Numbered from the stretch's first letter, positions 4,926 to 15,515 are shown. The stretch: 64,000 bases of DNA from Nitrospira sp. KM1 (GCF_011405515.1 NZ_AP022671.1:4331501-4395500); one strand, 5' to 3'. Numbers and translations are program-made. Notes: a model not told the origin generated them from the letters alone.

Positions 4926-6077
4926 TCAGTGATCCGAACGCTGCGAGGGGCTGCTCGCGATGGCCATAGCCGGCAGTGAGGCTTTACATTCCTGAACTAC
5001 CTGAGTAAATACCGGGATCAGGGTTGGAGCAAAAGCCCGTCCCGCCTGAGCAGTCATGAACATGCAGGCGTCCTCGATCGCGAGCGAGTCCCGGTCGGGA
5101 AGATCCGCCGTCAGATGGTCGAACGTTTGGGCGAGAGAAACGATTCTGGCCAATAGGGGTATGCCCTCACCCGATAAACCATGAGGATAGCCCGAACCGT
5201 CCCACCGCTCGTGATGGTACGAGATGATTTGACCCACCTCCGCTGGCAATCCCAATGGAGCTACAAGTTTTGCTCCCACCTCTGTGTGCTGCAGAGAAGG
5301 ACCGGATGTCCCAAGCGCGGTCATCGCGTCCTGCGCAAAATGATCGTTGTCCAAGGCAATCTGGCCGATGTCATGGAGAAACGCGCCGAGCGCTAGGGAT
5401 TTTTGCTCGTTGCTCGACAGATTGATTCTATTTCCGAGGAGCGTGGCATAAAAACTTACGCGGCTGCAGTGATTCAGGAGGTGTCTGTCCTTGGCTTCCA
5501 AGAGATCCGAAAAAAGAGGGAGTAATTCCATCCCTTCCTTCATGGACGCCGAGGGCTCGCTTCCGGATTTACCTATTACGCCGTAGCCGGCTTGCAGGCG
5601 GCTCCACGTCTCTCGACATTCGTTTTCCTTATCCCACCATCCAGGTGAGGAGTGAATGAACGTCCGTAGAAAGTCCAGCCGCTGTTTTTTCGCAAGCGTT
5701 TGATTGACCAATGTCACCAACTCGGTGACATTGAATGGTTTCAGAAGGTAACCCGCTGCACCGTGCCTGATCCCATCCATTGCGGATTTCAGACTTCCGT
5801 AGCCCGTAATGATAATGACCTCGACATTCGAATGGTCATGTTTGATTTCCTGTAGAAGGTCAATACCTTGGCGATCAGGGAGTCTCTGGTCCAAGGTGAT
5901 GAGGTCGACTTGCTGATTATTGAGGACGTCGAGGGCGGCGCTGGCGGATTCTGCAGCTTGAATATTGAAGAACGGGCGGAGAATGACCTTGAGTGCGTCA
6001 CGAGGTCCTGCTTCGTCATCAACGACGAGCACCGTGGGCTTATATTTCGTAATATCCTGGGTAATCGCTGTGGTCAT
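4926..6077 (-). CDS. Response regulator with HD-GYP domain, probable cyclic-di-GMP phosphodiesterase
   Basis: The N-terminal receiver (VLVVDDEAG, phospho-acceptor Asp in ITLDQRLPD, Lys in YLLKPFNV) is joined to a C-terminal HD-GYP domain with the metal-binding HDIG (FLHDIGQI) and HHERWDGSGYP motifs. RpfG-type proteins of this build hydrolyse cyclic-di-GMP when phosphorylated. The start at 6077 gives MTTAITQDITK just before the receiver; an in-frame ATG at 6125 adds 16 residues and has AAGGA too close to be a useful binding site. It is the last of four minus-strand signalling genes, 204 bases after the sigma-54 regulator, and likely opposes a cyclic-di-GMP input read by the PilZ fusion upstream. 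Confidence 0.85.
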   Translation of the reverse strand: MTTAITQDITKYKPTVLVVDDEAGPRDALKVILRPFFNIQAAESASAALDVLNNQQVDLITLDQRLPDRQGIDLLQEIKHDHSNVEVIIITGYGSLKSAMDGIRHGAAGYLLKPFNVTELVTLVNQTLAKKQRLDFLRTFIHSSPGWWDKENECRETWSRLQAGYGVIGKSGSEPSASMKEGMELLPLFSDLLEAKDRHLLNHCSRVSFYATLLGNRINLSSNEQKSLALGAFLHDIGQIALDNDHFAQDAMTALGTSGPSLQHTEVGAKLVAPLGLPAEVGQIISYHHERWDGSGYPHGLSGEGIPLLARIVSLAQTFDHLTADLPDRDSLAIEDACMFMTAQAGRAFAPTLIPVFTQVVQECKASLPAMAIASSPSQRSDH

Positions 6078-6281
6078 CCTGTGCTTATCTTCCCTTGTAA
6101 CGTGTGAATTAAAAGCAATTCCCATTCCTTTTCAGCAACTTATGAGCGCTTTCAAGCAGATGTAGTGTGGACGCACCGAGCTTACTACATATAGACGGTC
6201 CTGTGGAAAACGCAGTTGAGAGGGAGTTGCTGCGCTGCTCGGATTGATGCAGAAACGACTCAACGGATTGGAAAACCTGTG

Positions 6282-7718
6282 TTATTCCTGCACTAGTGGT
6301 TCAGGATCGGTAGTGGCTTCTGTATCTGGTCTGCCAATGCCTAATGCATCCATCCGGTATTTCAGCATTCGTCGGCTGATGCCCAATTGCTGGGCGGCGT
6401 GAGTTTGAACGTAATTGTTCTTTTTCAATGCATCCAGAATGATCTCGCGCTCGAATTCCATGACGGCTTTTTCCAAAGAGAGCCGCCCAGCGAGCGTGTC
6501 GTCACGAAGAGAAGTGGAGCGGCTATCGTTTCGAAGAATCGTCGGTAAATGTTCCGGCGTCACCGTATCGCACCCTTTGGACCAGATAAACGCCTGCTCG
6601 ATGATATTTTCCATTTCCCGAACATTGCCCGGCCAAGAGTATCTCGTGAGCAGATCGATCGATTCTTTCGAGAAATCCTGGCTTGAACGATTGTCTTCTT
6701 CGAGACGTTTGGAGAGGAAGTGCTTGGCAAGGAGTGGAATATCCTCGCCTCGTTCGCGCAGTGGGGGAAGGTAGAGCGCAATAACGTTCACACGATAGTA
6801 GAGGTCCTCTCTGAACTGACCTTTCCGCACCAATTCTTCAAGGTTCTTGTTGGTGGCGGCGACGATTCTGACATCAACCTTGATCGCTTGCACTCCGCCG
6901 ATTCTCGTAAACTCCCGCTCCTGGAGCACCCGCAACAGTTTGGCTTGCGTCATGGGGCTCAGATCGCCAATTTCGTCGAGGAACAACGTTCCGCTGTTCG
7001 CAAGTTCGAATTGCCCGACGCGGCGAGCCGTCGCATCGGTAAAGGACCCTTTTTCGTGCCCGAACAGCTCCGACTCGATCAATGTTTCTGGGAGCGCGGC
7101 ACAGTTCAAGGCCACGAAAGGACGGTCTTTTCGTCCACTGTTATAGTGCAGCGCTTTGGCAACGAGTTCTTTCCCCGTTCCGCTTTCTCCCGTGATGAGC
7201 ACGGTCGTTCGACTATCGGCGACCTGTTCGATCTTTCCGTAGATTTCCTGCATTGGGCGGCTTTTCCCAATGAGATTGTGAAACGCGTAGCGTTGAGTTA
7301 CCTGCGCCCGGAGGCTCTTGACCTCGCGTTCGAGATCCTGGGAATTGAGAGCACGACCCACAACGATACGGAGCTCATCGACATCGAAGGGCTTTGGCAG
7401 ATAGTCAGCTGCCCCCAGTTTCATGGCATCGACGGCGGTCTTCACGGATTTTGTGCCGGTCAGCATGATGACGGGAGTGGCGTTTTGCTCGGCACGAAGG
7501 GCTTGCAAGACTGAAAGACCATCAGTCCCCGGAAGGATGACGTCGAGCAGGACTAGATGGGGTGCTTCCTTATGGAAAAGATCGAGACCTTCCTGAGCGT
7601 CGGCAGCCTGAATCGTCTCATAGGTAGGCTCGAGAACCGTTTTTAAGGAAGAGCGGATGCGGGATTCGTCATCAATCAGCAGAATTCGTTTTTTCACGCT
7701 ATCGTTCGCTCCCGTCAA
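6282..7718 (-). CDS. Sigma-54-dependent response regulator (NtrC family)
   Basis: 478 residues: receiver (acidic pair in LLIDDES, phospho-acceptor D59, Lys in LPKPFD), AAA+ activator domain (Walker A GESGTGKE at 177-184, Walker B TLFLDEIGDL, arginine-finger region LYYRVN) and a C-terminal Fis-type helix-turn-helix (HAAQQLGISRRMLKYRM). The sigma-54 contact loop reads GSFTDA (224-229) instead of GAFTGA; the Thr needed for contact is kept and such variants occur in working regulators. It begins 9 bases after the kinase gene, so the two form a cognate pair. Targets are unknown. Confidence 0.92.
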   Translation of the reverse strand: MTGANDSVKKRILLIDDESRIRSSLKTVLEPTYETIQAADAQEGLDLFHKEAPHLVLLDVILPGTDGLSVLQALRAEQNATPVIMLTGTKSVKTAVDAMKLGAADYLPKPFDVDELRIVVGRALNSQDLEREVKSLRAQVTQRYAFHNLIGKSRPMQEIYGKIEQVADSRTTVLITGESGTGKELVAKALHYNSGRKDRPFVALNCAALPETLIESELFGHEKGSFTDATARRVGQFELANSGTLFLDEIGDLSPMTQAKLLRVLQEREFTRIGGVQAIKVDVRIVAATNKNLEELVRKGQFREDLYYRVNVIALYLPPLRERGEDIPLLAKHFLSKRLEEDNRSSQDFSKESIDLLTRYSWPGNVREMENIIEQAFIWSKGCDTVTPEHLPTILRNDSRSTSLRDDTLAGRLSLEKAVMEFEREIILDALKKNNYVQTHAAQQLGISRRMLKYRMDALGIGRPDTEATTDPEPLVQE

Positions 7719-7727
7719 TTGTTGAGG

Positions 7728-8996
7728 TTATTCCGGAATGGCAGGAAGGCTGATCACAAATGTCGTGCCCTTGTCTACGGCACTCGTGACGCGGATTTCA
7801 CCATGGTGCTCTTGGATAATCTGGTGCACAATCGTCAATCCCAATCCCGTTCCTTCGTGTTCGCCGCTTTCATGTTTGGTCGTGAAAAATGGGTCGAAGA
7901 TGTGTTCAAGATTCGTCTCCTGAATTCCGTGTCCGGTATCCGAAGTTTCAATCTGAACCCATGATTTTCCGCCAGGCCTGTCCCGCTTGGTTGTCCGGAC
8001 ACGCAAGGTTCCTCCTCGCGCGCTCATGGCGTCCAGGGCATTGAGAAAAAGATTGAGAAAGACCTGTTTCAGTTGTTGACGGTCCAGCATGACACGGGGC
8101 AGGTCTTGTGCCAATTCTTTTTCGATCTTGACCCCGTGACTATCGGCCTTGACGTCGATGAAATATAGACAGGAGGAGACGATATCGTTGATATCTTCCT
8201 CCGTCAGTTTGGGCTCCATGTAACGGGCATAATCGAGAATCTCTTCGATCAAACGCTCGATGCGATAGACGTCGTCAAGCACGATTTTGCTGAATTCACG
8301 AATGAAGTCGGGATCGTCCTTTCGTTCCGGCGCCAGTTGGATGAATGTCTTGATCGAGGTGAGCGGGTTCCGAATTTCATGGGCAAAACCTCCGGCGATC
8401 GTTTCAAGAGATTTCAACCGGTCAGTTCGTTTCATCAGCAGGTGGGAGCGATGTAGATCATCGTACAGGATCAAGGTGTCGATGGCATTGGTTGCGGCCT
8501 GTGCGAGCGCGTTCAGGAGAGGTTGAACGGAATTGCGATCTTGAGAAGGAAACGACGACTCGCTCAAGAGCGAAAAGGCCATGAGTCGGCTTCGACTCAT
8601 ATGCGGTAATGCATATATGGCGTTAAAAGGCGAGAGCATCTCGGCAAGAGAGCTTCCGAGATCAGTCTGTTCTTGATCACGAAGGTCCTGGCGATGCGCC
8701 GATCTGGCGGCATTGGTCAGATACTGTGGAAGCGCATGGGTGGTAGGGAGAGATGAAGGAAATTCCTGACCCTCATTGAGTCCCACCACGCTGCTTCGAC
8801 GGTAGCATTCATGTTCACGATCCAGGAGATACAGAGCCCCTCTGGTTGAACCGGCTGCGCGACAGAGTGCCTGGATCGCGCATTCGCTCAAGGCGCCCAA
8901 TTCAGTGATAGATCCCATTTCAATGGAAAAACTGGTAATCAATTCCAGCGGATCAACGGGATAAGTCTGATGAGAGAAGTCAGTTTTGGGACGCAT
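7728..8996 (-). CDS. Soluble GAF-domain sensor histidine kinase
   Basis: 422 residues and no membrane segment, so the sensor is cytosolic. The N-terminal 180 residues look like a GAF domain (LCRAAGSTRGALYLLDRE). The HisKA dimerisation helix has phospho-acceptor H206 in GGFAHEIRNPLTSIK. The HATPase domain has the N-box NLFLNALDAM, G1 DTGHGI, F-box FDPFFTTK and G2 GTGLGL, so all catalytic boxes are intact. It starts 69 bases downstream of the giant fusion gene and is followed 9 bases later by its regulator. The signal sensed cannot be told from sequence. Confidence 0.9.
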   Translation of the reverse strand: MRPKTDFSHQTYPVDPLELITSFSIEMGSITELGALSECAIQALCRAAGSTRGALYLLDREHECYRRSSVVGLNEGQEFPSSLPTTHALPQYLTNAARSAHRQDLRDQEQTDLGSSLAEMLSPFNAIYALPHMSRSRLMAFSLLSESSFPSQDRNSVQPLLNALAQAATNAIDTLILYDDLHRSHLLMKRTDRLKSLETIAGGFAHEIRNPLTSIKTFIQLAPERKDDPDFIREFSKIVLDDVYRIERLIEEILDYARYMEPKLTEEDINDIVSSCLYFIDVKADSHGVKIEKELAQDLPRVMLDRQQLKQVFLNLFLNALDAMSARGGTLRVRTTKRDRPGGKSWVQIETSDTGHGIQETNLEHIFDPFFTTKHESGEHEGTGLGLTIVHQIIQEHHGEIRVTSAVDKGTTFVISLPAIPE

Positions 8997-9065: not shown

Positions 9066-12000
9066 CTATGCTGGGGAGCTAGTGGAAATACCTTTCCCAA
9101 CCACGACCATGAAAGCCTGTCCCCCAAGGACGTGGCTGATTCGAAACGAGTGATGGCCTGATTGACGCAAGAGAGATGAAAGCACGTGTTGTTCGAAGGT
9201 ATTTAGAATCCCATGCTTGATTGCTTCCCTTAACCTTCCCAGAAGGTGTAGCACAGGCTGAGCTTGTGCGCTGAACTCATCCTGATTTCCCAGACGCAGA
9301 TGGTGTCGATAGACATGAGACAGGTCGGTGCGCGGGTGAAAAGTCGTAAACACGAGGCGACCATCAGGACGTAATACTCGTGCCCACTCTGATAATGTTA
9401 CACGCGTCGATGCTGCAAACGGGAGTGACAGATTCGAAATAATGCGATGGACAGAGTGAGATCGGAATGGGAGCGGTTGATCCCATTCTCCTTGCACCCA
9501 TCGAAGGCGTAGCGCAGGGGGAGCACTGCCGCCTTCGCTCAGCCCTGCATTCAATTCCTGTTGCAATGCCAGAACGTTTCTCCGTGCATGGGTGAGCGTT
9601 TCGCTCAGGCGTCGTACTCCGACGAGAGAGGGCAATGGAGGTTGGACAGGACCGCGCTGCCTGACCCGATAGGTATGGTTGATCAGTACGGCACGGGAGA
9701 GATCGCTTTGACCGATTCCTACATCGACGACTACCGTTCCGGAGGCCAGAGAGCCGAGAAAGGCGTACAGGTCGTCGAGCAATTTTCGGTACTCGTGGAC
9801 ATTAGTCAATTGTGCAACATGTTGGCCGAGCCTGATTGCCAGCGCGTGACGGCTTGCCTGGGAGGTGCCATGATGGAGACGCGTTTGCTCCATCGCCACG
9901 CGTTGATGGCGTGCGAGCTCGTGGGCCGTTTCCGCCACGGATGTCGTCTGGATCTTCAATTTCAAGCCGGCGGCAAGGTGTTCCATGATTTGTTTGAACG
10001 CCGCCGGCTCGACTTCCGGAGAAGGTCGGCCATGATCGACCAGCGTGGTCGGCACGGTCGTTATGGACGTATGAGGGCTCAATACGGATAGAAATCCATG
10101 AGGGAGATCAGGGGGAGGCAGTGAGGGGGTGTCCATTGGAGACAGGATCATCTTCAGCGGCGATTGCAGAAGTCGCAGGTCTTCCAATGTAGACGAGAGG
10201 TCGGTGAGGCGACCTGCAATGACGTCCCCGACAAACTGATCGACGTTAATATTGAGTCCGAAAAGGTTGGTGATCCCTCGCCGAAGACCATAGCGATGAT
10301 CAGCCACAAGATCATGACCGTGAACAGCCATCAACAATGCCCCAACATCTACGATGGGATTGTTGAGGATGATCAGCTCGAGGGGCCGTATATGCGCCGC
10401 AAGCTTCAGGGCAACTCGCGCGCCGAGATCGTTCGCCAACAGTGCGATCGGCGCGGTCGGCCACGTATGAGCGGCAAATTCCAACACCTTGCCCAAGTCG
10501 GTTTGCATACTTCGGAGTGTCGTGTTCTGCAGTTCCCCATCGCTTCTCCCTGCATGGTTGGTGTGGTCGTAGCGAAGCACCCGCAATCGGTGGCTGGCCA
10601 GGTAATAGGAGAGAGCGGAATAATCTGAAGATGTTTGACCGAATCCGGGCGCGATCACGATGATCGGCGTCTCCGCGGCGAGTGGCTTTGCCGGGTGATC
10701 ATCGGTCATGGCGATGATCTGACCACGATGATTTCTGCATTCACGGTAAACGCTGATGACGGCATCCCGGTCCGCCGCATAGTGATCAGGAGGCGGAGAT
10801 GCCAGGTGTTGTTTAATCAGCCTTGCCAATTCACGCTCAGCGAACGGCGTCAGCGAGACGAAACGAACTCCGATTCTGGCAGTGTGCGACGGGTCCGGAG
10901 GATACGGTTCCTGGAGTGCCGTCGGATCGACAGTCGTCCGTACAATGTACGCGGGTAGGGCGGAGTCGGGTGCTCCGGGTTCGTGAGAACCAGAGACATT
11001 GCCGGTTTGAGCAGGAGGAAAATGCAGAATAACGCGACCGCTCAGTTGGAGAGGGTCGATCTTCGCGATGACGCCGGCTCCGTCCCGGCTGATATCGCAA
11101 ATGTGCGCGACGAGACGATTGCCTGGCTCCTGATATCCGGATGCTTCGATCCGGACGGGCAGAGCGAGTTGAACGCGAACGGATTCCCGTCGCTCCTCAT
11201 CCTGCGGTGCCTCCGATACGGCAGGCGGGGATTGCGGAGGAATCTCTGTATCCGTGGCGAGCAACATATCGAGCGACAGCGCGACGGATCGATCCTTCGC
11301 TGCTGCTACCAAAGAACTGAGAATCGCGGCTTCGGCGGGACGGAGCGGGTCGAACGCAATAACGAGTGCCGTGTGCTGGAGACCCTGTTGCTTTAGACCC
11401 GATGACGGGCGAATGTTGGCAGAACCGTTCAATTCCAGGATGCCGGCCACAGTTCGTAAAATGACGTATACGTCTTGATTCACGATGGCGGGACAGTCTG
11501 CCGGCAGGGTTAGGCAGGCACCTCCCTGACCGATGTTCACCACGAGGCCGTCCCAACTTGCTGCATCAATGATGGCGTGGGCGGGCAGCGAAGTCGCCGT
11601 GCGCGGCCACCGTCTTTTTTCGATAGGCACGGGCTGCCGCTCGGATGCATGCACAGAGGACGGGAGAGGTACAGGTGGCTGATTAGCGGATTTCGGGGCA
11701 AGTGGGGCCGCCTGAATGACTTGAGGCTGAGCCAGACTTGCACCATGGCCGGTCGGCAGTCGGATGACGAGTCGGAACGGCCCAGTCGAGGATGCGGACA
11801 TCGCAAGTGTGCCGCGGATTTCCTTCACCAGGCCGAAGAGGCGGAGAAGATCCGTCGGGACGTCAATCGCCTGTGGAAATTCCGGAAGCGCATTCTGTTC
11901 TGACTCGGTGACGATGATGTCAATCTCACGCAAAGGGGGTTGCGGTTGTTCATCGACTCGTTGGCCGCTGTCAGGAGACGAGGCATGACTGTCAAACTCG

Positions 12001-13253
12001 ATGGACAGCGCGCGATTCCTCCCCGCCATCTGTACGTACGCCAGCGCATAAAGAAGAGCATCTCGCATGACCCCTACGGTTTTGTCCTTATCTCCGTGGA
12101 ATGCCGGCAACCCTGAGAATTCAGCTACGGAAATCCCCTCCAAGGTCCTCGATGTGTCCGAAGCGATGAGATCTACGATCAGGTCACGGATCGATAAGCC
12201 GGATCCAAGGCCAACGGGCGGTTCAATTGGATGCAGCAGCCGGTTGCTCAGGTCTGAAAGGGCGTCGATATGAGATGCTAATTGCTCGATGCGCTCCTGC
12301 AAGCGCACTTCGTGCAGTGAGGAAAGGAGTTCTTGCAAATGGGTACGGAGAGAGGACAACGAAGTTTCCAGACTCAAAGATATAGGCGCCTGTTCTTGAT
12401 GGCGAATCGAAGGATCCCTTTCTTGAAACATCTGAGGTTGATCCTGGACCTCCATTGTGGGCTGCCGGGGCCGGTCGGACAGATCTCGGATCACACCGAC
12501 CGTGCCGATGAACCGGCGATGAGAATCATACAGCCCTCGAGCGCTGATCTCGACGATGATAGGAAAGACTGCGCCGCTTACGTCAGGCTTGTGCTGTAGT
12601 ATCAATCGAAACTGTCTGGCGCTCCTGGTTCCCGAGCGTCGTTCATTGAAACGGAACTTTGCGTGCGGTTGGCTATTCGGCGGACACAGTCTTGTATAGG
12701 ACATGCCGAGCAATTCGTCGATCCGGTATCCCAGGAGTGAGGTCACACCTGGACCGAGACTGATGAAGAATCCGTCGGCGTCGAGCTCGTACGAGACATC
12801 AGGTAGGGATTCCAGCAACTGGCGGTGCCGAATCGTCGCATGCTCGACGGCAAGATGCAGGTCCCGTTTGTCGAGTGCTTCTCTCGCGCAGAATAACAAC
12901 TCGGTGAGAAAAGCCGGCGACTGTTTGGCCAGATAGAAATCTATGCCGGCCTGTAAGGCATGAATGGCAGATTGCGCGTCGGTCTTGTGGCTTTGGAGAA
13001 TCAGCGCCGCCTGCTGCGCATGCAGTTTCAGATCACTGATCAGTCCTGGATCATGTTCGGAAAGACAACCGCCGTCGAGAAGGATAATACTCCAGTCGAT
13101 TCGAGCGGACATGAGTGTGCGCGCTTCTTCCGCCGAATACGCCGCATCGATTCGACAATCCGGGAAGAATCCTCGAAGACTGATCGTCGCGAGTTTGGTT
13201 TCTTCGGCGTTCTCATTGATGATCAAAATGAATACCGGCGTTCGCGGCGGCAT
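9066..13253 (-). CDS. Giant fusion: receiver, PAS, degenerate kinase, two PilZ, LuxD-like hydrolase, methyltransferase
   Basis: 1395 residues. Order seen: receiver-like domain (5-130; D60 and K110 kept, acidic pair replaced by NENAEE); PAS (142-260); a kinase-like stretch (290-500) without a phospho-His or clear ATP boxes; PilZ 1 (545-650; RRWPR at 547-551, NIGQGG at 573-578); PilZ 2 (685-815; RRESVR, DISRDG at 720-725, both canonical); an alpha/beta hydrolase-like domain (830-1097) resembling LuxD acyltransferases (IVIAPGFGQTSSDY, then NHAGRSDGE); and a class I methyltransferase-like domain (1140-1388; VVDVGIGQS, then RVLRPDGRLVFTTFHP). The hydrolase nucleophile position holds D942 (ANDLGAR). 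No membrane segment. PilZ domains suggest cyclic-di-GMP binding. AGGA lies 9 bases before ATG 13253. First gene of the signalling block; function is not established. Confidence 0.8.
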   Translation of the reverse strand: MPPRTPVFILIINENAEETKLATISLRGFFPDCRIDAAYSAEEARTLMSARIDWSIILLDGGCLSEHDPGLISDLKLHAQQAALILQSHKTDAQSAIHALQAGIDFYLAKQSPAFLTELLFCAREALDKRDLHLAVEHATIRHRQLLESLPDVSYELDADGFFISLGPGVTSLLGYRIDELLGMSYTRLCPPNSQPHAKFRFNERRSGTRSARQFRLILQHKPDVSGAVFPIIVEISARGLYDSHRRFIGTVGVIRDLSDRPRQPTMEVQDQPQMFQERDPSIRHQEQAPISLSLETSLSSLRTHLQELLSSLHEVRLQERIEQLASHIDALSDLSNRLLHPIEPPVGLGSGLSIRDLIVDLIASDTSRTLEGISVAEFSGLPAFHGDKDKTVGVMRDALLYALAYVQMAGRNRALSIEFDSHASSPDSGQRVDEQPQPPLREIDIIVTESEQNALPEFPQAIDVPTDLLRLFGLVKEIRGTLAMSASSTGPFRLVIRLPTGHGASLAQPQVIQAAPLAPKSANQPPVPLPSSVHASERQPVPIEKRRWPRTATSLPAHAIIDAASWDGLVVNIGQGGACLTLPADCPAIVNQDVYVILRTVAGILELNGSANIRPSSGLKQQGLQHTALVIAFDPLRPAEAAILSSLVAAAKDRSVALSLDMLLATDTEIPPQSPPAVSEAPQDEERRESVRVQLALPVRIEASGYQEPGNRLVAHICDISRDGAGVIAKIDPLQLSGRVILHFPPAQTGNVSGSHEPGAPDSALPAYIVRTTVDPTALQEPYPPDPSHTARIGVRFVSLTPFAERELARLIKQHLASPPPDHYAADRDAVISVYRECRNHRGQIIAMTDDHPAKPLAAETPIIVIAPGFGQTSSDYSALSYYLASHRLRVLRYDHTNHAGRSDGELQNTTLRSMQTDLGKVLEFAAHTWPTAPIALLANDLGARVALKLAAHIRPLELIILNNPIVDVGALLMAVHGHDLVADHRYGLRRGITNLFGLNINVDQFVGDVIAGRLTDLSSTLEDLRLLQSPLKMILSPMDTPSLPPPDLPHGFLSVLSPHTSITTVPTTLVDHGRPSPEVEPAAFKQIMEHLAAGLKLKIQTTSVAETAHELARHQRVAMEQTRLHHGTSQASRHALAIRLGQHVAQLTNVHEYRKLLDDLYAFLGSLASGTVVVDVGIGQSDLSRAVLINHTYRVRQRGPVQPPLPSLVGVRRLSETLTHARRNVLALQQELNAGLSEGGSAPPALRLRWVQGEWDQPLPFRSHSVHRIISNLSLPFAASTRVTLSEWARVLRPDGRLVFTTFHPRTDLSHVYRHHLRLGNQDEFSAQAQPVLHLLGRLREAIKHGILNTFEQHVLSSLLRQSGHHSFRISHVLGGQAFMVVVGKGISTSSPA

Positions 13254-13557: not shown

Positions 13558-14556
13558 CTATTGCTGGGCCTGAGCAGTGTTGGTAGCCGGGCAGGCGCCA
13601 GGGGTCATATATAGCAGGTAGTTCCCCATTCCGTGCTGAAGCTCCTCTTTCTGAAGAGGATGGTGATGGACCATGACCATTTCATAGTCATCGGCTTTTG
13701 AGACCGGAAATCCCTGCCCGTTCTGATAGACCTGATGAGGTTGAAATTCGAGGAACTTTCCGTCCTGTTCCACGTCCGGAACGGTTCGGAGAAGGGTTTG
13801 TTTTCTCGTTTTGTTTTCCAGCGCGATCATCAACAATTCATCGTGACCATGGGGATACGCGAACTTCACGCAACCGTCCATCAAAAACTTCAATGGGGCT
13901 GCGTGCACTTGGACTCCAGGCTTGATCTCAATCCCTTCATCTGTCTGATCCGGGCCGCGTTGTGCGAATTTGCTATAGCACACCACATTCACGCCCACCT
14001 GGTAGACGTCCATTTCCTTCACCGGCGCCTGCTCCGGCGCCATGTACATGGTAAAGCTGGCCATGACATTCTTGGTGGGAGGAGCCTTATGATAAAAAGC
14101 CACTACTGACATGAGATGCTGCCCTTTGGCCAACTTGACCCCATATCCATCGGGAAATTTGGCTTCTGTCATTTCCAGACCGGCACCGCTGAAGAAAAGG
14201 GGCTCCCCCGGACAGGATACGCTCGGCTTATCGTTGTTGAGCATCAAAATATGGTGCAGATAGTTTCTAGGCAGTGGGACCCCCTCCTGCGTGAACACTG
14301 CCGATTTGAACCCGACCATGTACATATCCTTGGGAAGCTGAAATACATGTTTGGGCATCGAGGCCGCCAGATCTCCTTCATGTCCGGAGGGAAGGTCGAT
14401 CGGGCCGAACGTCAGTGTCACTGTATTGTCCTGAATGCTCACGACGGTCGTCGTTTGGTTCTTAAGAGTGGGAACGGCATGATGATCATGCCCGCCGTCT
14501 GCAAACGCCGATGTAACCAAACCCAGGGTCATGACGACCAACACGATCAGATTCAT
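13558..14556 (-). CDS. Exported histidine-rich protein of unknown function
   Basis: 332 residues with a clear signal peptide (MNLIVLVVMTLGLVTSAFADGG). The start at 14556 is set by GGAGG a few bases upstream; a longer in-frame reading to 14733 has no such site. Histidine motifs GGHDHHA, NYLHHILML, YPHGHDEL and VMVHHHPL are spread through two similar-sized halves. The HH-containing strand and spaced His/Met residues recall the copper-binding fold of type II monooxygenases (PHM/DBH), but this is only a resemblance. It probably resides in the periplasm and may bind a metal. It follows the exported NTF2-like gene by 77 bases on the same strand. Confidence 0.6.
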   Translation of the reverse strand: MNLIVLVVMTLGLVTSAFADGGHDHHAVPTLKNQTTTVVSIQDNTVTLTFGPIDLPSGHEGDLAASMPKHVFQLPKDMYMVGFKSAVFTQEGVPLPRNYLHHILMLNNDKPSVSCPGEPLFFSGAGLEMTEAKFPDGYGVKLAKGQHLMSVVAFYHKAPPTKNVMASFTMYMAPEQAPVKEMDVYQVGVNVVCYSKFAQRGPDQTDEGIEIKPGVQVHAAPLKFLMDGCVKFAYPHGHDELLMIALENKTRKQTLLRTVPDVEQDGKFLEFQPHQVYQNGQGFPVSKADDYEMVMVHHHPLQKEELQHGMGNYLLYMTPGACPATNTAQAQQ

Positions 14557-14633
14557 ATATCCTCCAGCTGAAAAGGGAAGATCCGAGGTGAGTAGATGAA
14601 TGCGGGGTCTGTTTGCTGAAGAGTCGAGAGGCC

Positions 14634-15515
14634 TCATCGCGCAGACGGAACCGGAGTCATTCGTTTCCATTGATATGTGCCGCCGTGTTCGCGAGGTGGA
14701 ATACTCTTCTGACTTCCGACGCGGGTATACCACCAGACTCCCTTGGCTTGGGTCCCGTCTTCAGACAGGAGAACCTCGAAGCCTCCTTCTCTATCGTTTC
14801 CCGGCTGGTGCCAGGTTCCCTGCCAGAGACGGTCTGAAAATTTTGTGGTGACGAACCGGCCGCCATGCTGCGTGTAGGGGCCGTTCCCGGCTTTGTCGAG
14901 GGTCGCTTTATAACGCTTATCGTCTTCCACCTCGAGAATATCCCACTCGCCGCTCAAGTCAAACGAAAGAGCTGAAGAGTTCGATGCCAGCGTACCGGCT
15001 GCCGGTTTCTGTGCTTCATCGGTGAGACGTACGGCCCCACCAGAGTTTCTGAACGATTCATGCCAGGAGAGCAATACCCAGTGACCTTCGCGCCGCTCCA
15101 ACACCCCGGTCTCCCGTAGCGGAAGCAACGATTTCTGTCGCTCACTGCCTTCCTTGACCGTACGGATGTAGTCCAGTTCCATGGTGTACCAGGCCAGATC
15201 GCCTTTGGTCCACACCTTCAGCTCTTTGATCGGTAGATCAAGCGAAACTGCAGATGAAAACTCCTCAAGCATGTCGCGTTCGAGATCCGCCCATCCGACA
15301 TACTTACGTCCCATAATGGTATAACTGGTGATATCGTCATCGTGCGCCATCAGTCGAGACAGCGCCGCCATGTCCTTTTGGGCATTTGCACGGACCATGG
15401 CACGAATGGCAGCTTCCGCGCCGAGATCCTCCGCGGCGAATCCAAGATTTAACCCTGCCTGGAACAAATTCAACGTCAGCAAGCACAAACTGATCCGTAT
15501 GAGTTGACGCAACAT
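14634..15515 (-). CDS. Exported SnoaL/NTF2-like domain protein
   Basis: 293 residues with a signal peptide (MLRQLIRISLCLLTLNLF, cleavage near FAAEDLG). Residues about 30-150 read as an NTF2-like/SnoaL fold (AIRAMVRANAQKDMAAL, then IMGRKYVGWADLERDM and GHWVLLSWHESF), a cone-shaped ligand-binding domain seen in many secreted proteins. The C-terminal 110 residues (LSGEWDILEVEDDKRY, WQGTWHQPG) look like a small beta-barrel, lipocalin-like domain. It probably forms a transcription unit with the His-rich exported protein downstream. The substrate is unknown. Confidence 0.6.
   Translation of the reverse strand: MLRQLIRISLCLLTLNLFQAGLNLGFAAEDLGAEAAIRAMVRANAQKDMAALSRLMAHDDDITSYTIMGRKYVGWADLERDMLEEFSSAVSLDLPIKELKVWTKGDLAWYTMELDYIRTVKEGSERQKSLLPLRETGVLERREGHWVLLSWHESFRNSGGAVRLTDEAQKPAAGTLASNSSALSFDLSGEWDILEVEDDKRYKATLDKAGNGPYTQHGGRFVTTKFSDRLWQGTWHQPGNDREGGFEVLLSEDGTQAKGVWWYTRVGSQKSIPPREHGGTYQWKRMTPVPSAR

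Follow-up and report, generated by a model that had tools for sequence, protein, structure and literature searches.

One gene in a stretch of 64,000 nucleotides of Nitrospira sp. KM1 (GCF_011405515.1, NZ_AP022671.1:4331501-4395500; hereafter, the window) raises the question of what a single polypeptide can do when it joins signalling domains to domains of two enzyme families. The preliminary description of this DNA suggested that the product, at the head of a regulatory block, may couple cyclic-di-GMP (c-di-GMP) and a phospho-signal to acyl or methyl chemistry. Here, the focal protein is examined domain by domain, together with its genomic neighbours and its relatives in other bacteria.

Domain layout and operon context

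The focal gene (9066..13253) is a single open frame on the minus strand, which runs from an ATG start at 13253 to 9066 and encodes 1395 aa. Its domains, of which PAS, both PilZ, LuxD and the methyltransferase were placed by means of Pfam and NCBIfam profile searches, occur in the following order: (i) a receiver; (ii) a PAS domain; (iii) a degenerate histidine kinase; (iv) a PilZ domain; (v) another PilZ domain; (vi) a LuxD-like α/β hydrolase; and (vii) a class I methyltransferase (REC-PAS-pseudo-HK-PilZ-PilZ-pseudo-LuxD-pseudo-MTase). All the motifs quoted in the preliminary description are found in the translation. The domain order and identities that it gave agree with profiles and fold models, except that it missed the degenerate HisKA-HATPase segment. 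Its statement that no described protein carries this set agrees with the searchable literature, within which nothing alike was found.

The receiver (residues 5-125; 12879..13241, minus strand) matches its profile weakly (PF00072, E 0.013, under the Pfam cut-off), and its fold is clear in the predicted structure. It keeps the phospho-acceptor D60, S88 and K110, while the first residue of the acidic pocket is replaced (N13) and the second, E14, is kept. Among the members compared, the phospho-acceptor Asp is present in 58/60 (the remaining two have Glu), Lys110 in 54/60 and Ser/Thr88 in 53/60; 59/60 members have another residue at the first acidic position, as do many at the second. With its Asp and Lys kept, the receiver may be an ordinary phosphorylated input.

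The PAS domain (residues 140-262; 12468..12836, minus strand) is recognized both by Pfam (E 5e-6, above the cut-off) and in the model; outside these two domains, the structure model of the N-terminal half is of low confidence. The degenerate HisKA-HATPase (residues 265-512; 11718..12461, minus strand) was identified by profile-profile comparison: hhalign aligns residues 265-520 with the adjacent histidine kinase (prob 98.7, E 1.9e-16). This pseudokinase lacks an N-box and ATP-binding glycines and, in place of the phospho-His, the profile alignment shows Leu293; none of these elements has a conserved equivalent among 14 aligned members. In one relative (L041), the segment still matches HisKA and HATPase, albeit weakly.

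As the preliminary description had it, the focal gene heads a co-directional block, whose other genes, all on the minus strand and assigned by profiles, encode (i) a soluble histidine kinase of 422 aa (7728..8996) with a GAF-like N-terminus and intact HisKA-HATPase key residues, which has shed the 7TM part borne by its ancestral relatives; (ii) an NtrC-type sigma-54 response regulator (6282..7718); and (iii) a REC-HD-GYP response regulator (4926..6125), a predicted c-di-GMP phosphodiesterase. The order of these four genes, which face recN, is conserved. A pattern search for a sigma-54 promoter upstream of the operon gave fewer matches than shuffled sequence.

The domain order is widely conserved: the full-length open frame recurs, at 30-50% identity and in the same syntenic place, across many genera of the family. 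Homologues spanning essentially the whole query amount to 14 rows in 61 genomes, nearly all without internal stops, and in a wider set of 175 genomes most of the best rows are full-length. The possibility that a sequencing or assembly error, or a frameshift, had fused two genes is excluded, since the same uninterrupted frame is found across many genera. One related genus includes at least five genomes (G151, G142, G092, G119 and G152) in which the focal gene is cleanly missing at the same site and the kinase, NtrC and HD-GYP genes are retained; hence, the focal protein is an accessory component of the system. At locus L196 of the complete genome G091, the kinase gene has been deleted, which leaves the focal gene continuing in frame into the AAA+ region of the NtrC gene.

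PilZ, hydrolase and methyltransferase domains

PilZ (PF07238) is matched in two stretches of the focal protein (E 2e-15, 57.3 bits versus a cut-off of 22.5). The first domain (residues 543-660; 11274..11627, minus strand) carries an RxxxR motif (R547, R551) and NxGxxG; the second (residues 685-835; 10749..11201, minus strand) carries RxxxR (R689, R693) and DxSxxG. The arginines R547/R551 are kept in 68/69 members and R689/R693 in 71/71, as is N/D720 (71/71). In the first domain, Gly stands in place of the Ser of the (D/N)xSxxG motif. From these motifs we infer that both domains would bind c-di-GMP. The RxxxR and (D/N)xSxxG motifs are shared with PilZ receptors of the YcgR/MapZ type, which also carry effector domains, and a c-di-GMP read-out is presumed; the focal protein differs from them in that its two PilZ domains lie among the seven domains of one polypeptide, flanked on either side by pseudoenzymes.

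The hydrolase domain (residues 845-1100; 9954..10721, minus strand) belongs to the LuxD family, as indicated by its Pfam match (Acyl_transf_2/LuxD, PF02273, residues 847-1034; E 5e-13, 49.5 bits versus a cut-off of 20.3) and by structure comparison, in which LuxD (1THT) is the best match of the focal-protein model (Z 28.1, rmsd 3.0 over 282). It is also the PDB entry that the sequences of intact-triad relatives match best (E 1e-33). The fold, the profile and the RYDxxxHxGxSxG loop are thus common to the focal protein and the LuxD myristoyl-ACP thioesterase. But the focal protein has no Ser-Asp-His triad, carries PilZ domains and a methyltransferase on the same chain, and lies outside a lux operon.

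The loss of the triad and of the SAM motifs was mapped onto 1THT, using 36 and then 136 homologues and taking the LuxD catalytic triad to be S114, D211 and H241. The triad columns hold Ser, Asp and His in one set of relatives; in the focal clade they hold Asp942 and neither the acid nor the His. Asp942 (codon 10428..10430, minus strand), at the position of the nucleophile Ser114 in LuxD, is invariant in 53/53 clade members. A tree of 98 rows, built with the catalytic columns left out, places two triad changes, including one at the root of a clade of 56 rows.

In spite of its missing triad, the hydrolase ranks with those segments of the protein that are under the strongest constraint. In three close pairs within the clade, its dN/dS (NG86) is 0.085, 0.158 and 0.147, versus 0.15-0.39 for the PilZ domains and 0.13-0.41 for the pseudokinase; the PAS domain or the receiver is lower in single pairs, partly with saturated dS. 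The low dN/dS of the hydrolase, the invariant Asp942 and the kept PilZ arginines and receiver Asp argue for a maintained protein, most simply a c-di-GMP-responsive pseudoenzyme.

The class I methyltransferase (residues 1151-1390; 9084..9803, minus strand), assigned by Pfam and alignment, matches Methyltransf_11 (PF08241) in its C-terminal part only (residues 1247-1302; E 7e-6, 27.1 bits versus a cut-off of 21.2). Its SAM motifs are eroded: VDVGIGQSD replaces DAGCGNG in motif I, and Arg1214 occupies the place of the acidic SAM-ribose residue. Motif I is eroded in 18/18 rows of the focal subclade. D-x-G-C-G is kept in sister genera, several members of which also keep Glu at the acidic position, and the case for lost methyl transfer is accordingly strongest in the focal protein's own genus. 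On the 98-row tree, the methyltransferase motifs undergo nine changes. The hydrolase domain dominated the structural re-alignment of the C-terminal-half model, and Foldseek listed Coq5 as well.

A probable c-di-GMP receptor and the competing explanations

Sequence comparison sets the focal clade apart by (i) the fusion of the C-terminal half (PilZ-PilZ-LuxD-methyltransferase) to the REC-PAS-pseudokinase N-terminal half; (ii) the fixed change of the catalytic Ser to Asp; and (iii) an adjacent kinase that is soluble. In other lineages, the C-terminal half stands as an apparently catalytic protein. The focal protein is, on balance, probably a cytoplasmic c-di-GMP receptor that derives from a retired c-di-GMP-gated lipid enzyme and modulates the adjacent two-component system. 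On binding c-di-GMP, the PilZ domains would reposition the pseudo-hydrolase/pseudo-methyltransferase module; instead of catalysing a reaction, this module would offer a surface for docking or for binding a ligand, perhaps an acyl one. Acting jointly with the receiver, the PAS domain and the pseudokinase, it might then modulate the neighbouring soluble kinase, a step suggested by gene order. The kinase, for its part, would phosphorylate both the HD-GYP phosphodiesterase and the NtrC-type activator. This would complete a feedback loop for c-di-GMP, with the focal protein as an accessory input.

That the protein is still an enzyme by changed chemistry, with Asp942 as a nucleophile under c-di-GMP control, is unlikely. 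Asp does serve as the nucleophile in haloalkane dehalogenases and epoxide hydrolases, and both the invariance of this residue and the strong constraint on the fold are compatible with such a role; an active intermediate is also conceivable, for in the relative L064 the nucleophile position reads Asp, and the acid and His of the triad are still present. However, acid and His are lost throughout the clade; His897 and His900, neither of them at a triad position, are the sole histidines that reach at least 92% conservation over clade residues 845-1390. Since no replacement His is conserved, an active Asp-nucleophile hydrolase is disfavoured. Furthermore, lineages elsewhere have Asn or Gly at the nucleophile position, a pattern resembling relaxation.

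It is more doubtful still that the protein is mainly a phosphate sink or output regulator that accepts phosphate from the adjacent kinase at its N-terminal receiver, the C-terminal half being just a dimer or scaffold element. The conservation of the receiver Asp, Lys and Ser/Thr agrees with this, as do the intact catalytic motifs of the kinase, but the replacement of the acidic residues and the strong selection on the C-terminal half speak against it. The model of the preliminary description, i.e., an active acyl/methyl enzyme controlled by c-di-GMP and phosphorylation, is very improbable for the focal protein. Profiles and models show both folds to be intact, and the motifs kept in sister genera imply that methyl transfer may survive outside the focal subclade; nevertheless, with the canonical triad absent and both motif I and the acidic residue of the methyltransferase lost, the proposed coupling to acyl or methyl chemistry is unsupported. 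The ancestral relatives, unlike the focal protein, could plausibly carry out such chemistry.

Intact relatives and their 7TM-GAF kinases

The derivation of the proposed c-di-GMP receptor from a lipid enzyme is best considered in the light of its relatives. The C-terminal half is found alone or with other N-termini in Nitrospirales, and also in three genomes of Omnitrophota and in single genomes of Nitrospinota and Margulisbacteria. Wherever the region downstream of an intact-triad locus could be resolved, a kinase of the focal type with an additional N-terminal 7TM region was found (48/48, Omnitrophota loci among them: 46 adjacent kinases, one fused and one at a contig end). An example of an intact relative is the copy of Ca. 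N. defluvii (FP929003, about 0.94 Mb). The fused case, L075, is a 1641-aa protein and possibly reflects an indel, since these genes normally overlap. Among triad-less loci with a visible kinase, 73/74 have a soluble kinase of 420-490 aa; other triad-less loci have no kinase. When triad and kinase were tallied against each other, 43 intact loci had a 7TM kinase and 73 loci without the triad had a soluble one, with 1 exception. This near-perfect correlation is suggestive of a joint loss of the enzyme residues and the membrane part of the kinase, although, with about two changes on the tree, it cannot reach significance by independent pairs.

In the PhcB/PhcS/PhcR quorum-sensing system of Ralstonia, the signal is a 3-hydroxy fatty acid methyl ester, formed by a methyltransferase and read by a sensor kinase (PMC11960443, PMC8578825). 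Likened by layout, the intact relatives also pair an acyl-ACP-type enzyme and a SAM methyltransferase with a sensor kinase and response regulators. In the focal protein itself, in contrast, neither enzyme is intact, and the adjacent kinase lacks a membrane part, so that the two do not form a synthase-sensor pair. To our knowledge, the PhcB/PhcS system has no counterpart of gating by PilZ (c-di-GMP) or of the LuxD domain. A 7TM-GAF-HisKA kinase with an NtrC-like partner is common to the relatives and to PrsK/PrsR of the exosortase/PEP-CTERM system (TIGR02916/TIGR02915); nonetheless, the relatives score under the curated cut-offs, and the conserved partner here is the PilZ-enzyme.

The slot upstream of other 7TM kinases holds further enzymes, which mostly act on acyl-ACP/CoA or lipids: (i) PilZ-KASIII at L052, L056 and L252, and at L306, which is cut by a contig end; (ii) PilZ-HMG-CoA reductase at L254; (iii) a PilZ-derived acyl-ACP reductase at L253; (iv) HDO-type enzymes, either PilZ-fused (L296, L299, L300) or free (L292, L301, L302); and (v) HAD phosphatase-like proteins. 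The PilZ parts are degenerate in L253, L296 and L300. By analogy with PhcB/PhcS, these PilZ-enzyme/7TM-kinase pairs look like an undescribed class of signal-synthase/sensor pairs with c-di-GMP as the gate; sensing of lipid homeostasis is an alternative reading. No description of the PilZ-LuxD-methyltransferase or PilZ-KASIII architectures, or of their pairing with 7TM kinases, was found in the open-access literature searched.

A broader scenario is possible and is put forward tentatively: that Nitrospirales and some Omnitrophota pair a 7TM-GAF kinase with an exchangeable lipid or small-molecule enzyme; that in the focal family this enzyme is PilZ-fused, with c-di-GMP gating a diffusible lipid signal read by the kinase; and that the focal protein is a natural endpoint, reached by the joint decay of enzyme and membrane sensor, at which the former synthase serves purely as a c-di-GMP receptor. 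If true, the focal protein would show how a presumptive signal synthase can turn into a second-messenger receptor with its fold kept, in a major nitrifying group. The intact relatives, in turn, would point to an unnamed family of c-di-GMP-gated enzyme/sensor-kinase pairs and, perhaps, to lipid-based communication in Nitrospira, where the signalling reported so far is of the AHL (LuxI/LuxR) type (PMC8553950). In Omnitrophota, LuxD-methyltransferase and the 7TM kinase are accompanied by an acyl-ACP reductase, FabF-type synthases, FabG and a receiver.

Conserved upstream neighbour and actual or possible gene fusions

The gene located almost without exception upstream of the focal gene, or of the site from which the focal gene has been deleted, encodes a 391-aa protein (13558-14733, minus strand in the window) that has no Pfam or NCBIfam match and is 65-85% conserved.

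Two single reading frames were observed at the loci of relatives: (i) at locus L196 (6716-11827), in the complete genome G091 (4,589,485 bases), the focal protein continues in frame into the AAA+ region of NtrC, a natural fusion in which the kinase and the receiver of this regulator have been deleted; and (ii) at locus L075 (6942-11867), a 1641-aa frame comprises PilZ-LuxD-methyltransferase and its own 7TM kinase, and may be either a true fusion or an indel of the metagenome assembly.

Enzymes associated with 7TM kinases

In relatives from the family and order of the window organism (L052, L056, L252, L253, L254, L296, L299, L300, L306), PilZ-fused lipid-type enzymes are encoded immediately 5' of 7TM-GAF histidine kinases. 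The enzymes vary in kind (KASIII, HMG-CoA reductase, acyl-ACP reductase, HDO-type oxidase), and these loci possibly constitute a new class of enzyme/sensor pairs gated by c-di-GMP.

In Omnitrophota (L118 and L117), an operon contains genes for an acyl-ACP reductase, a LuxD-methyltransferase lacking PilZ, a 7TM kinase, a receiver and FabF/FabG-type proteins; it looks like a small gene cluster for a lipid signal.

Second copies of the 7TM kinase are present in another family of the order (L288, L290, L291, L295, L298, L304), with a HAD hydrolase upstream and, in most cases, a further kinase-like hybrid protein of ~770 aa downstream.

LuxD-type domains with an altered nucleophile

The nucleophilic Ser is replaced by Asn or Asp in the LuxD-type domains of L027, L052, L064, L065 and L066, most of which retain the acid and the His of the triad. 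These domains possibly represent intermediate steps or a changed chemistry.
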